Below are positions 3,813-35,121 of a DNA stretch of 63,407 bases, piece after piece. Position numbers and translations under genes: made by a program. Below the pieces are notes generated by a model. It was not told where the DNA came from and did not search any database. It was given only the letters and a program-made list of their open reading frames with translations. Source of the DNA: Chloroflexota bacterium (GTDB lineage: Bacteria > Chloroflexota > Anaerolineae > Aggregatilineales > Phototrophicaceae); the NCBI GenBank assembly GCA_016223085.1, contig JACRPS010000019.1:1-63407 (forward strand), given 5' to 3'. Numbering within the stretch: the first letter of the stretch is position 1; every line of letters begins with the position of its first letter.

Positions 3813-5627
3813 ATGCCCAAGCCCATTCACGTATCCGTCGCCTGGCCGTATGCCAACGGCGATTTACACGTCGGCCACCTGGCGGGCGCGTACCTGCCCG
3901 CCGATATTTTCGCGCGCTATCACCGGCTAAAGGGCAACCGCGTCCTGATGGTGTCGGGGTCGGATAGTCACGGCACGCCGATTTCGGTCGAGGCGGACAA
4001 ACGCGGCATCCCGGCGCGGCAGGTGTTTGAGCATTATCACCGGCGCTTTTTGCAGACGCAGCAGAAGATCGGCATCAGCTACGACCTGTTCACGCATACT
4101 GATACCGAAAATCACCATAAAGTCTCGCAGGATTTTTTCCTGAAGCTGCTGGAAAAAGGCCACCTGTACAAACAGCGGCAGAAGCTGCTGTACAGCGAAC
4201 TGGAAAAACGCTTCCTGCCGGACCGCTATGTTGAAGGCGAGTGTTACATCTGCCACTACCAGGGCGCGCGCGGCGACCAGTGTGACAACTGTGGCAACCT
4301 GCTGGACGCCACGCTGCTGATTAACCCGCACAACAAGGGCAACCCGTCCGACAGGCTGACGATCAGGGAGAGCGAACACTACTTCCTCGATCTGGCACAG
4401 TTCGAGCCGCAACTGCTGGATTACATCAGCCGGCACGAACACCACTGGCGGCCCAACGTGGTGCGCTTCAGCCGCAACTTCATCGCCGATGGCCTGCAGG
4501 GCCGCCCCATCACGCGTGATATTGACTGGGGCGTGAATGTGCCGCTGGAAGGCTGGGACGACAAAAAGCTGTACGTGTGGTTCGAGGCGGTTATCGGCTA
4601 CTTTTCGGCCAGCGTCGAATGGGCCAAAAACACGGGGCAGCCGGACACCTGGAAGGACTGGTGGTACAACCCCGACGCCGAAATCTACAACTTCATTGGC
4701 AAGGACAACATCCCGTTCCACACCATCATCTGGCCGGCGGAACTGATCGGCGTGGATGGGATTTATAACAATGCTGCCGTAGGGACACGGCATGCCGTGT
4801 CCCTACAGTTGCCTTATGACGTGCCCGCCAACGAGTTCATGAACATCGAAGGCGACAAGTTCTCCAAAAGCCGCAACTGGGCGATCTGGCTGCCGGACAT
4901 CCTCGAACGTTACCAGTCGGATGCCGTGCGCTATTACGTGGCGGCCACCTTCCCGGAAACGGCGGACTCCGACTTTTCCTGGGAGGGCTTTCTAAACCGC
5001 GTCAACGGCGAACTGCTGGCGGCCTGGGGCAATCTGGCGAACCGGATGCTGAGTTTCGCCTACAAACGCTTTGACGGCAAAGTGCCGGTCTACGATAAGC
5101 TGACTCCAGACGATGAAGCGATCATCGCCCAGAGCGAAGCCGCGTTTGGGCACATCGGCGGGCTGATCGAGGCGGTCAGGCTGCGCGACGCGCTGCAAGC
5201 GGCGATGGCGCTGGCGCGCGACGCCAACGGCTTCCTCGACCGGCGCGCCCCCTGGAAGACGATCAAGGACGACCCGGCGGACGCGGCGCGTTCGGTGTAC
5301 GCCGTGCTGCGCGTGATTGACAATCTGAAGGTGCTGCTGGCGCCGTTTATCCCGTTTACGTCGCAAAAGCTGCACCAATACCTCGGCTACGACGGGCACT
5401 TGTTTGGCGACCTGAACATTGTCGAATACGCCGAAGCCAGCCGCCGCCACGAGGCGCTGGTGTACGACGGTCGCGCGGCGATTGGTAAATGGGAGAAAAG
5501 CGCGCTCCAGCCCGGACAGGCGCTGCGCGAACCCGCGCCGCTGATCGTCAAGCTGGAGCCTGAGATCGTGGAGCGCGAGCGAGCGTTCCTCGGCGCGCCG
5601 CGTGAAGAACACGCGATTGAGGCGTAG
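3813..5627 (+). CDS. metG: Methionyl-tRNA synthetase
   Basis: A 604-residue class I aminoacyl-tRNA synthetase charging tRNA-Met. The HIGH motif is HVGH (19-22), the KMSKS motif is KFSKS (349-353), and a zinc-knuckle insertion with CYIC...CDNC lies near residues 147-167. The anticodon-binding helical domain follows; the C-terminal EMAP/Trbp111-like tRNA-binding domain found in many bacterial MetRS is absent. AAGGAG precedes the start. Residues 323-331 (VGTRHAVSL) are encoded entirely by a genomic palindromic repeat, just before the conserved LPYDVPANEF segment, so the enzyme carries a repeat-derived loop. Confidence 0.95.
   Translation: MPKPIHVSVAWPYANGDLHVGHLAGAYLPADIFARYHRLKGNRVLMVSGSDSHGTPISVEADKRGIPARQVFEHYHRRFLQTQQKIGISYDLFTHTDTENHHKVSQDFFLKLLEKGHLYKQRQKLLYSELEKRFLPDRYVEGECYICHYQGARGDQCDNCGNLLDATLLINPHNKGNPSDRLTIRESEHYFLDLAQFEPQLLDYISRHEHHWRPNVVRFSRNFIADGLQGRPITRDIDWGVNVPLEGWDDKKLYVWFEAVIGYFSASVEWAKNTGQPDTWKDWWYNPDAEIYNFIGKDNIPFHTIIWPAELIGVDGIYNNAAVGTRHAVSLQLPYDVPANEFMNIEGDKFSKSRNWAIWLPDILERYQSDAVRYYVAATFPETADSDFSWEGFLNRVNGELLAAWGNLANRMLSFAYKRFDGKVPVYDKLTPDDEAIIAQSEAAFGHIGGLIEAVRLRDALQAAMALARDANGFLDRRAPWKTIKDDPADAARSVYAVLRVIDNLKVLLAPFIPFTSQKLHQYLGYDGHLFGDLNIVEYAEASRRHEALVYDGRAAIGKWEKSALQPGQALREPAPLIVKLEPEIVERERAFLGAPREEHAIEA
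4779..4806. repeat. Palindromic element A inside metG
   Basis: A perfect 28-bp palindrome (GTAGGGACACGG-CATG-mirror) lies within the metG reading frame and is translated as VGTRHAVSL. The frame used is the same as in the two other coding copies (16841-16868 and 36165-36192). Confidence 0.9.
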
Positions 5628-10319: not shown

Positions 10320-10334
10320 GAACGGTTTGCGTTC
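10320..10334. promoter_or_regulatory. Inverted repeat upstream of the LexA-type HTH gene
   Basis: GAAC-N7-GTTC lies about 70 bp before the HTH gene, with a further GTTC at 10345 and a TATAGT at 10362. It could be an operator for a LexA-like protein, possibly the gene's own product. This is an inference only. Confidence 0.3.
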
Positions 10335-10404
10335 TCGAAAAATTGTTCTAAACTGTGATAGTATAGTCATCCGTTTGATTCTTGTTACACCGTTCGGAGG
10401 TCTG

Positions 10405-10620
10405 GTGGACGAGCAAACTGTTTACGCCGTGTATGCGTTCATCCGGGTCTACATCCGCGAGTGGGGTTACGCGCCCAGCATCCGCGAAATCGCGCGCGCC
10501 TGTTATATTTCGCCCGGCAATGTTTACCGTTATCTGGATAAGCTGGAAGGCAAGGGATTGATCGAACGGCAGCCGGGGGTGGCGCGCAGTATCCGGCTGC
10601 TGGTAGATGAACAGGCGTAG
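10405..10620 (+). CDS. LexA-type winged-helix DNA-binding protein (no protease domain)
   Basis: 71 residues matching the LexA N-terminal DNA-binding domain: VYAFIRVYIREWGYAPSIRE, then ACYISPGNVYRYLDKLEGKGLIER as the recognition helix and wing. The C-terminal S24 autoprotease domain is absent, so it cannot be cleaved like LexA. The GTG at 10405 is taken as start because GGAGG ends four bases before it; the frame is open further upstream. Small LexA-DBD proteins of this kind act as stand-alone repressors. Its stop overlaps a palindromic repeat. Confidence 0.7.
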   Translation: MDEQTVYAVYAFIRVYIREWGYAPSIREIARACYISPGNVYRYLDKLEGKGLIERQPGVARSIRLLVDEQA

Positions 10621-12700: not shown

Positions 12701-12998
12701 CGCGGCCAACCGAAAACTTATACCTCTACCATAACTCACCACCAGCATATCCGGTTCGGTTTGTTCTGTCAATACCGAACAGGCCGAAAATAACAAACAA
12801 AGGCAGACTGGTCTCCGAAAAGAAAAACAAATGTTTAAACAAAAGTTCACCCCCTTGTAGAACTTTTGTGCTAATCTATAAACAGTCACCGGCCACTGCG
12901 CTCGGCGGCGCGGGCGGCAACCAGAGGCACGGCGCCGCGTTCCGCCACTAGCCGGACGGCGAGTCCGCCAGCGCGGGCCGGTACAGTATTGTCCCATT
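12701..12998. other. Intergenic segment upstream of the terminase pair
   Basis: It holds a perfect 9-bp inverted repeat (CAAAAGTTC at 12840-12848, GAACTTTTG at 12860-12868), a possible promoter across its right arm (TTGTAG at 12855, TATAAA at 12877, 16-bp spacer), and then a very GC-rich stretch (12895-12985) that can fold into several stems. No gene or known RNA is recognised. The inverted repeat overlapping the promoter looks like an operator for the downstream genes. Confidence 0.4.
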
Positions 12999-13027: not shown

Positions 13028-13049
13028 ATTGTCTGTTTCAGGAGGCGCG

Positions 13050-13472
13050 ATGTCCCGACGGTACACCGACGACGACCGGCGTCAGGCGCTGGAGTGCCTG
13101 AAGGCCAACGGCGGCAACTGCTGCCAGACGAGCCAGGAAACCGGCATTCCGGTGCGAACACTGCGCACCTGGGCGCGGCAGGCACGGCAGGCCGAGGAAG
13201 CAGCCGATGTGGAACGGGCGCTGGCGCAGATGCGCCAGCGGTTGATAGACAATGTGCTGCGGCTGGCGAACTCGCTGGAAGCCAAGATTGACGACGCGCC
13301 GCTGAACCAGCACGCCAGCGCCCTGGCGCAGTTGGTAGACCGGCTGATTAAGCTGGCCGAAAAGCTGCCGCCGTCCAGTTCCGATGGTGAGATTAGACAG
13401 ATCGAGTATATCTACCCCGATGGCTCAACTCATCATACCCCACCCTGGGCAGACGACGATTCTGAAGTCTAA
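13050..13472 (+). CDS. HTH protein, terminase-small-subunit-like
   Basis: 140 residues. The N-terminal 40 carry a helix-turn-helix (CCQTSQETGIPVRTLRTWARQ) of the type seen in phage terminase small subunits and some transposases; the rest is helical and ends in an acidic tail. AGGAGG is well spaced before the ATG at 13050. The 3' end overlaps the large-subunit-like gene by 53 bp, so the two are translationally coupled, as small and large terminase genes are. No capsid, portal or tail gene is nearby. Confidence 0.65.
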   Translation: MSRRYTDDDRRQALECLKANGGNCCQTSQETGIPVRTLRTWARQARQAEEAADVERALAQMRQRLIDNVLRLANSLEAKIDDAPLNQHASALAQLVDRLIKLAEKLPPSSSDGEIRQIEYIYPDGSTHHTPPWADDDSEV

Positions 13473-14610
13473 GGCGCGCTTCCGTGTCGTTGCCTGTGGC
13501 AGGCGCTTCGGCAAAACGGCGCTCGGCCAGATTGCCATCGTGGAAGCGGCGTCGGAAGGGGCGCGCTGCTGGTGGCTGTCGCCTACTTACAAAATGGCAA
13601 GCCAGGTATGGCGTGACTTAAAGCGCGCCTGCCGGACGCGTGACGAAGTGGAAATCAACAACGACGAGCGCCGGATTGATTTTGTTAAAGGCGGCTGGCT
13701 GGCGATCCGCAGCACCCACAGCGCCGACAACCTGCGCGGCGCGGGTCTGGACCTGGCCGTGCTGGACGAAGCCGCCTTCATGGCGGCGGACGTCTGGCCG
13801 GAAGTGGTGCGCCCCATGCTGCTGGAACGGCAGGGCAAGGCGCTGTTCCTGTCGTCGCCGAACGGGCGCAACTGGTTCTGGGAACTGTTTCAACGGGGAC
13901 TGGACCCGCACGAACCGGAGTGGCAGTCGTTCCACTTCACGTCCTACGACAATCCGCTGATCGCGCCGGCGGAACTGGATGCGATTCGCCGCCAGACGCC
14001 GGAGCGAGTCTGGCAGCAGGAATACCTGGCGCAGTTCAGCGAGGACTCCGGACTGGTGTTTCGCGGCCTGCGCGACGCCGCCACCGCGCCGCCGGACGCC
14101 CAGCCACAGGCCGGAACGCGCTACGTCATCGGCTGCGACTGGGGGCGCAGCGGCGACTACACGGCGCTGGTGGTGCTGGACGCTGACCGCCGGCAGATGG
14201 TCGCCATGGACCGCTTCAATCAAATCAACTGGTCGCTCCAGCGTGGGCGGCTGCGGGCGCTGTACGACCACTGGCAGCCGGTGGTCATCTGGGCGGAGTC
14301 CAACAGCATCGGTTCGGTCAATATCGAGGCGTTGCAGGCGGAAGGGCTGCCGGTGCGCCCGTTTGCCACCACTGTCAAAAGCAAGGGGCCGCTGATCGAA
14401 GACCTGGCGCTGGCGCTGGAACGGCGCGACCTGGCGCTGCTGCCGGACGAAACGCTGCTGCACGAACTGGCGGCCTACAGCCTGGAACGGCTGCCGGGCG
14501 GCACGTACCGCTACAGTGCCCCGCTGGGACAGCACGACGACACCGTGATCGCGCTGGCGCTGGCGTGGCATGGCGTCCGTCATGGCGGTGCTGGTGTGGA
14601 GTTTGTCTAA
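13420..14610 (+). CDS. Terminase-large-subunit-like ATPase/nuclease
   Basis: 396 residues with both terminase activities: Walker A GRRFGKT (27-33), Walker B LAVLDEAAF with Asp116/Glu117, a coupling motif near LFLSSPNG, and an RNase-H-like nuclease domain opening with GCDWGRSGDYTAL (Asp240) and ending with QHDDTVIALALA. In phages this protein packages DNA into proheads. Here the pair stands alone between a glycosyltransferase operon and a stress-protein gene. The ATG at 13420 is preferred because homologues begin near a PHPGQ-like segment; an ATG at 13384 is also in frame. It is intact and has no frameshift, which suggests that it is maintained. Confidence 0.8.
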   Translation: MAQLIIPHPGQTTILKSKARFRVVACGRRFGKTALGQIAIVEAASEGARCWWLSPTYKMASQVWRDLKRACRTRDEVEINNDERRIDFVKGGWLAIRSTHSADNLRGAGLDLAVLDEAAFMAADVWPEVVRPMLLERQGKALFLSSPNGRNWFWELFQRGLDPHEPEWQSFHFTSYDNPLIAPAELDAIRRQTPERVWQQEYLAQFSEDSGLVFRGLRDAATAPPDAQPQAGTRYVIGCDWGRSGDYTALVVLDADRRQMVAMDRFNQINWSLQRGRLRALYDHWQPVVIWAESNSIGSVNIEALQAEGLPVRPFATTVKSKGPLIEDLALALERRDLALLPDETLLHELAAYSLERLPGGTYRYSAPLGQHDDTVIALALAWHGVRHGGAGVEFV

Positions 14611-34868: not shown

Positions 34869-34940
34869 TGGGCGTACCAGGGCTCGAACCTGGAACCAAC
34901 AGCTTATGAGGCCGGCGCTCTGCCATTGAGCTATACGCCC
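34869..34940 (-). tRNA. tRNA-Met (CAU)
   Basis: The minus strand folds as a cloverleaf: acceptor GGGCGTA/TACGCCC, D arm GCTC/GAGC, loop CTCATAA with anticodon CAU, T arm CCAGG-TTCGAGC-CCTGG, discriminator A, no encoded CCA. The anticodon stem is weak (C27-U43 mismatch, G29-U41 pair). CAU could also mean the lysidine-modified tRNA-Ile2. Confidence 0.85.
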
Positions 34941-34948
34941 GATAAAAA

Positions 34949-35020
34949 AGCGGGTAGTGGGAATCGAACCCACGACATTTTGCTTGGAAGGCAAACGTTC
35001 TACCTCTGAACTATACCCGC
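34949..35020 (-). tRNA. tRNA-Gly (UCC)
   Basis: Perfect cloverleaf on the minus strand: acceptor GCGGGTA/TACCCGC, anticodon stem TTTGC/GCAAA with loop CTTCCAA (anticodon UCC), T arm GTGGG-TTCGATT-CCCAC, discriminator U as usual for Gly. CCA is not encoded. Confidence 0.95.
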
Positions 35021-35047
35021 ATATAGAGTATAACCGAATTGTTAATG

Positions 35048-35121
35048 TCGGGGTGCCGGAATTCGAATCCGGGACCTCAGCACCCCAATTGCCGCGCGCT
35101 ACCAGGCTGCGCTACACCCCG
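35048..35121 (-). tRNA. tRNA-Pro (UGG)
   Basis: Cloverleaf on the minus strand: acceptor CGGGGTG/CACCCCG, D arm GCGC/GCGC, anticodon stem CGGCA/TGCTG with loop ATTGGGG (anticodon UGG), T arm CCGGA-TTCGAAT-TCCGG, discriminator A. It is first in the three-gene tRNA operon. CCA is not encoded. Confidence 0.93.

Follow-up and report, generated by a model that had tools for sequence, protein, structure and literature searches.

The window under study, that is the whole stretch of 63,407 nucleotides that was analysed, is the entire contig C10 of a 6.0 Mb, 37-contig Chloroflexota assembly, and it carries a terminase gene pair with the following features:

10327-10620, forward strand: LexA-type DNA-binding-domain protein of 97 aa (PF01726, 2e-12), a candidate regulator
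12825-12848, forward strand: tandem operator AAACAAATGTTT-AAACAAAAGTTC, two RAAC-N4-GTTY boxes
12840-12868, no strand: inverted repeat with arms CAAAAGTTC (12840-12848) and GAACTTTTG (12860-12868), read directly, overlapping operator and promoter
12860-12877, forward strand: promoter-like GAAC-N4-GTGCTA with a -10-like TAATCT
13029-13472, forward strand: HTH open reading frame, likely start ATG 13050, preceded by an AGGAGG-like site
13050-13472, forward strand: TerS, an HTH small-terminase-like protein of 140 aa with a conserved ...PPW tail
13384-14610, forward strand: TerL open reading frame, in which homology begins at ATG 13420
13420-14610, forward strand: TerL, ATPase plus RNase H-like nuclease of 396 aa, from profile matches and alignment

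The terminase pair reported in the preliminary description of this DNA is real, as the open reading frames and profile matches bear out, and its two genes overlap by 53 bp (13420-13472). TerL matches Terminase_6N (3e-10), Terminase_6C (1e-7) and phrog_2 (1.5e-50), has the solved phage TerLs 4zni and 5tge as structural matches, and combines the Walker A/B ATPase with the RNase H-like nuclease triad that characterise a large terminase. Its motifs are indeed intact, as had been claimed: Walker A, Walker B and the nuclease D/E/HDD residues are constant in every row that covers them, 44-46 of 46 rows. Fold and motifs are alike in the TerLs of Halorubrum phage Hardycor1 and Thermus phages P74-26/P23-45, and identity to annotated phage TerLs is 31-36% among the best 8 of 1277 matched. 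The HTH protein, for its part, matches HTH_Tnp_1 (2e-5), a transposase and a sigma factor score best among the PHROGs (4e-4), with small terminases at no better than 0.02-0.05; we name it TerS because of its position, its overlap with TerL and its conservation upstream of TerL. An HTH TerS is present in this genome; across the 41 TerL loci it is found at 18, a count in which 13 rows of the HTH profile are themselves among the loci, whilst a TerS core without HTH occurs in G017, G031, G023 and family f4. A lone second TerS-like gene lies on contig C37 of the same genome (L323:6484-7041, reverse strand), with an HTH and the same PPW tail; it is preceded by an imperfect operator and the promoter element, and no TerL adjoins it.

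Around the pair, the neighbours in the window are cellular in type (PrmC, MarR and YflT by profile matches, glycosyltransferases by eye). Searching all six frames of the window with 12 HMMs of the system's genes gave matches at TerS and TerL only, and 7 of the neighbouring proteins, compared with phage structural families, matched none. The edge of a prophage was considered as a setting for the pair and rejected, as the window holds no particle genes besides TerS and TerL; the terminase does adjoin other particle genes in G008, G031 and families f3 and f4. Elsewhere in the window, tRNA genes for Met, Gly and Pro lie consecutively at 34869-35121 on the reverse strand. The pair had been called an orphan, and this description holds for the window, which has no phage structural gene, but not for the genome, where portal, capsid and tail genes are found at other places. 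A look for capsid-like genes elsewhere in the genome had been advised, and they were found, with the portal and connector, on contig C18:

161856-163364, reverse strand: HK97 portal, from a whole-genome search
181032-182810, forward strand: protein of 592 aa, matched as a capsid over its C-terminal part
202573-203364, forward strand: head-tail connector, from a whole-genome search

The portal neighbouring or near TerL in f3 and f4 relatives is likewise an HK97 portal. In the capsid homologue of G051, the N-terminal part matches a head-maturation-protease PHROG (3e-4); this match is absent from the capsid protein on C18, whose N-terminal part is, judging from sequence, probably protease-like. 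After the connector come a tail-terminator-like protein, one of 505 aa, a tail fibre, a putative fibre-assembly protein and a small membrane protein. The predicted structure of the 505-aa protein resembles baseplate hubs, both that of phage phi812 (Z 24.4, rmsd 3.6 over 339, VIA-align) and chain 6tba_8A of RcGTA (Z 13.0, rmsd 3.3 over 221), whilst that of the 152-aa terminator is similar to gpU, the tail terminator of lambda (Z 11.8, rmsd 3.2 over 128), and RcGTA 6tba_4A (Z 9.0, rmsd 3.5 over 123). The fibre matches phrog_24210 (3e-33), a phrog_8746 match (0.0017) makes its neighbour a possible fibre-assembly protein, and the small membrane protein, which is without any match, is 'holin-like' by eye. 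The Caudoviricete-derived parts that define a gene transfer agent (GTA) are hence at hand: portal, capsid, TerL, connector and fibre by HMM, hub and terminator by predicted fold. An endolysin was not found among the system's genes. As for the tail itself, phrog_9522, the only tail-tube family usefully tested (22 genomes), gave no match in this genome; it matched G174 (the control), G015 and G044, and missed G102. The tape-measure family PF10145 gave weak matches in G015, G026 and G039 only and also missed G174 and G102, which carry tape-measure genes, making this search uninformative. With neither a tail-tube nor a tape-measure gene found in the interval from terminator to hub, the particle encoded here may have a very short tail.

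These genes form four separate units with mostly cellular-looking flanks, TerS-TerL on C10 and the other parts across 40 kb of C18, as would be expected of a GTA endogenised across multiple loci; the contiguous cluster of head and tail genes that marks an active siphophage or prophage is absent from this genome. What, then, ties the units together? A tandem RAACNNNNGTTY operator stands in front of three of them in this genome, those of TerS, portal and capsid, reading AAACAAATGTTTAAACAAAAGTTC at 12825-12848 and lying upstream of the portal at C18:163445 and of the capsid at C18:180711; as the pattern was defined from these three sites, the matches there are exact by construction. The inverted repeat that had been noted over a possible promoter was confirmed by direct reading, and it overlaps the operator, forming part of a shared operator and promoter. 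In 1.43 Mb of fetched sequence the exact operator pattern has a single further occurrence, before the TerS of G016. Allowing up to 3 mismatches, the pattern occurs at 7 places in the genome studied here, namely before TerS, portal, capsid, the second TerS-like gene on C37, a Uma2/endonuclease V pair and two others (names by eye), against 0 for the reversed-pattern control there and 1 in G005. Any match to the pattern was found in 5 of 19 genomes searched, and the connector/tail unit of this genome has no operator within ~400 bp.

The promoter-like element GAAC-N4-GTGCTA is found, in the same genome, before TerS, capsid and the second TerS, and is absent before the portal. Over 1.55 Mb it gave 30 matches. 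A script placed 25 of them upstream of genes of the system; of the other five, four are upstream by reading (L323, L326, L305, L306) and one is not (L162). Outside this genome, 23 of 24 matches are upstream, all before TerS/TerL or capsid, whilst the mean for 200 letter-permuted motifs was 0.07 upstream matches (max 2). The element was read in the promoters of this genome and its form fixed after a first look at relatives, and the sequence searched was chosen around these genes; the permuted-motif control meets both biases in part. It is kept in three families, preceding TerS/TerL in 16 of 38 genomes and the capsid in 9 of 19, under half of the units, and stands before no portal or connector among the relatives examined. 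In G014, TerS/TerL, portal, capsid and connector are preceded by a variant form, GAAC-ATAT/ATTT-GTTC. Between promoter and TerS lies a GC-rich leader (12888-12985), and similar stretches are seen 3' of the promoter in several relatives.

Single RAAC-N4-GTTY boxes are ~7-fold denser upstream of the system's genes than elsewhere (0.36 vs 0.05 per kb). The LexA box of Gram-positive bacteria is GAAC-N4-GTTC, which the RAAC-N4-GTTY box resembles, and a LexA-type protein may bind it. The LexA-type protein at 10327-10620, in which no peptidase domain was matched, has relatives near TerS/TerL in five other genomes (G017, G024, G026, G034, G036). Operator-like sites also occur near the Uma2/endonuclease V pair (L320 ~7402, G000:C12:191401) and near a DinB-like gene (L324 ~6589, G005:C93), all named by eye, and such sites hint at a damage-response regulon.

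We consider next how widely these genes are shared, in a set of 61 genomes (this one and 60 relatives) made up of assemblies, many of them MAGs, that may miss or mix genes. TerL, present once in the genome studied here, is found in 45 of 61 genomes, with one match in 38 of the 45; on this ground the TerS-TerL pair is not a chance find. Nor is it confined to one strain, as the preliminary description had allowed for, since these 45 genomes cover several families. The portal occurs in 46 genomes (one match in 40), the capsid in 47 (one match in 41) and the connector in 49, some of its matches being weak. With one match per genome as the rule, a stand-alone mobile element was rejected. Importantly, amongst the 35 good genomes (at least 90% complete, at most 5% contaminated), TerL, portal and capsid are all present in 28, all absent in 7 and partially present in 0, a count that uses per-gene search thresholds, does not separate ordinary prophage capsids and includes fragments (G020). 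Indeed, 4 of the 28 complete genomes (G019, G020, G037, G044) have a capsid of more ordinary phage type. In a class-wide sample of 298 genomes, the capsid was matched in 25 (E up to 1e-15) and TerL in 26 (E up to 1e-30), matches outside the order being of lower identity. A TerL relative with 82% identity belongs to an Aggregatilineales bacterium; a search for TerL relatives gave 15 loci, 6 of them from other phyla or unclassified (L039-L044, of which L039 and L040 alone are in the TerL tree), and the best identity among the 80 viral relatives kept of 133, of which 8 were placed in the tree, is 48%.

The genes flanking TerL are cellular-looking and differ between most genomes. The distance separating the parts varies too: where TerL, portal, capsid and connector share one contig, the stretch that contains them measures ~9 kb in G038 and in G051 but 224 kb in G024 and as much as 307 kb in G014. 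For the GTA trait that the element's own genes are too many or too far apart to be packaged whole, the long and the compact stretches point in different directions. Gene order in the f3 clusters is conserved. Between portal and capsid in these clusters lie a TIR-domain/HEAT-repeat protein and a second HEAT protein (L232:2842-4317 and 4504-4863 in G051; also in G038); an immune system controlling GTA release is described in Caulobacter in the part of PMC13236601 consulted. The hub directly follows the terminator in G027, in G014 and in the compact cluster of the f2 genome G044. In this last genome, portal, capsid, connector, terminator, hub and fibre are clustered between cellular-looking flanks (L299:15295-20000 and L300:1-3440); the cluster has no tail tube, and TerL lies on a different contig. 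Perhaps this is a sister or intermediate form. By comparison, in the prophage-like L303 (G174), a single cluster, terminator and hub are separated by major tail and tape-measure proteins, and L297 (G102), also a single cluster, has minor-tail and tape-measure proteins after the terminator. The IMG/VR contigs L327, L328 and L330 carry portal, capsid (56% identical) and connector consecutively, and the fetched 10 kb of each lacks GAAC-N4-GTGCTA. These compact phage relatives share with the system homologous portal, capsid and connector genes in the same order, and differ from it in forming one contiguous cluster where here the units are scattered.

The selection analysis that had been proposed for the terminase gave dN/dS of 0.06-0.17 for TerL (here and below, the five closest pairs listed per gene unless stated). 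Together with the portal (0.05-0.31) and capsid (0.17-0.34), TerL is under purifying selection. The fibre (0.16-0.42, three pairs), hub (0.22-0.59), TerS (0.24-0.53, three pairs from three genomes), connector (0.30-0.47) and terminator (0.45-0.66) are under weaker constraint.

Inheritance appears to be mostly vertical, as it is for GTAs, given family-level clades and a correlation with RpoB, although the latter is of moderate strength and there is a second terminase clade. The TerL tree, from which 6 of 61 rows were removed as duplicates, has clades for f3 (100/99) and f4 (100/100) and a 28-row f1 group (98/96) that contains one long-branch viral contig; 7 other f1 rows fall outside this main clade, 5 of them forming the second terminase clade. 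The capsid tree groups f3 (81/100), f4 (100/99) and f1 (93/97), and the portal tree has f3 and f4 clades with f1 not one clade; in both trees, phage rows sit on very long branches. Distances correlate moderately among the genes and with RpoB (Spearman 0.32-0.67, permutation p 0.002-0.032), the correlations with RpoB itself being 0.43-0.64 (p <=0.032, 15 genomes each), in Mantel tests on 15-30 genomes from a chosen list. Since f7 and f8, whose genomes are without the three genes, nest in the RpoB tree among families having them, losses are likelier than late gains. The second terminase clade (L158, L161, L162, L163 and L165, from G011, G008, G004, G014 and G009 of the same genus) is ~44-50% identical and has another small protein upstream in 4 of 5; its member in G008 adjoins hub and fibre genes and the G009 copy has the same promoter element, as if the original terminase had been replaced.

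Taking these observations together, we consider it likely, from what the genes encode and how they are kept, that TerS-TerL drives DNA packaging in a particle of domesticated tailed-phage origin, one that functions in the manner of a gene transfer agent. The system would be dispersed, vertically inherited and GTA-like, and we assign it to the GTAs provisionally; three of the six GTA features in the consulted part of PMC9662315 are found. The preliminary description had suggested a domesticated device for packaging or cutting DNA, serving for instance gene transfer or defence. DNA packaging, with gene transfer as an example, is supported (mostly one match per genome, purifying selection, several families), and a stand-alone cutting or defence role is not. 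We posit that a DNA-damage- or LexA-like signal could lead a few cells to co-express the scattered units, whereupon TerS-TerL would package random chromosomal fragments via the portal into HK97-type heads, connector and terminator would close the head, and hub and fibre would attach the particle to a cell. Particles would exit by lysis and deliver their DNA to kin, so that both the packaging of host DNA and its transfer are part of what we infer. A bolder formulation, of an order-wide Chloroflexota GTA that predates the split of the host families, with a LexA-box-like promoter tying small units together and a head-neck-hub-fibre particle without tail tube, is one that we hold tentatively and with rather more doubt than belief, a doubt increased by the lack of the promoter element in front of most units.

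Could the same genes serve a particle that transfers nothing? A domesticated, host-controlled particle without gene transfer, be it a PBSX-like particle filled with DNA that kills or serves as a decoy, or a head put to some other cellular use, is the most serious competitor, albeit an unlikely one: the same sequence evidence fits it, delivery being the inferred step, hub and fibre are retained with no tube found, and the part of PMC12946183 drawn on here voices the same doubt about the FpGTA of Faecalibacterium. However, both TerL active sites, portal and connector are conserved, which argues that DNA packaging itself is selected, and fibre and hub speak for binding to cells. It is far less probable that a single ancient prophage has been broken up by rearrangement and is now decaying. 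In its favour, the genes lie at several loci, with the full phage gene set seen at none, dN/dS of some parts rises to ~0.6, and there are in-frame stops in the G031 portal and in a capsid piece of G025; yet frames are intact in nearly all other matches, the three main genes are under purifying selection, 0 of the 35 good genomes has a partial set, the promoter element is retained in three families and the f3 gene order is conserved. Slimmer still are the chances of a phage satellite or helper-dependent element with its own terminase, for although the lone unit in the window resembles satellite packaging modules as generally known, the genome holds a head set, the unit sits among cellular genes that vary between genomes, and TerL is mostly single-copy and family-wide. 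Just as improbable is a stand-alone DNA-cutting or defence device, which would suit the intact nuclease and the lack of any other phage gene in the window, but sits poorly with an operator common to TerS-TerL, portal and capsid and with the finding, by ORF and profile inspection of the window, of no recognised defence gene beside the pair.

Returning to the GTA-like reading, the closest analogue is FpGTA, which, in the consulted part of PMC12946183, is likewise GTA-like, lies outside the Proteobacteria, has TerS, TerL, portal, capsid, baseplate and fibre, is split into two loci ~125 kb apart and is thought to be short-tailed. The present system differs, on the same partial source, in belonging to another phylum, in its at least four separate units, in an operator common to three of them and in a TerS that, in this genome, has an HTH; FpGTA particles have been observed, whereas those of the Chloroflexota system are predicted from its genes. 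RcGTA and CcGTA are similarly domesticated, vertically inherited and spread over several loci, and in CcGTA the activators are under a LexA-like repressor and no tail is visible, whilst RcGTA differs in its core cluster of structural genes and its 49 nm tail (PMC9662315, PMC9632790 and PMC6854486, in the parts consulted). The predicted hub and terminator folds match RcGTA chains of 6tba. On the other hand, the TerS of RcGTA is without HTH, a loss proposed, in the part of PMC6854486 used here, as a change for non-specific packaging; the TerS studied here keeps its HTH and is in this respect not of GTA type, although the HTH-less cores of G017, G031, G023 and f4 do show that change. A word search of titles and abstracts in the open-access literature returned no GTA of Chloroflexota. 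Three things look new: the phylum, main head genes that are themselves scattered with an operator in common, and the missing tail tube.

GTAs with known genes are few and mostly alphaproteobacterial, according to the consulted part of PMC12946183. Here, by contrast, would be an independent GTA in a large and mostly uncultured phylum, found via co-occurrence and a shared promoter and not as a cluster. This suggests that prophage finders can miss such scattered systems, and offers a route to finding more of them. Its compact, split and scattered stages would make the domestication and maintenance of GTAs directly testable. From their genes, these uncultured Chloroflexota probably produce virus-like particles by which their own DNA passes from one to another; if the bolder formulation holds as well, their relatives show the intermediates, from a 9-kb cluster to a 300-kb dispersal, and the break-up of a domesticated virus can be watched.
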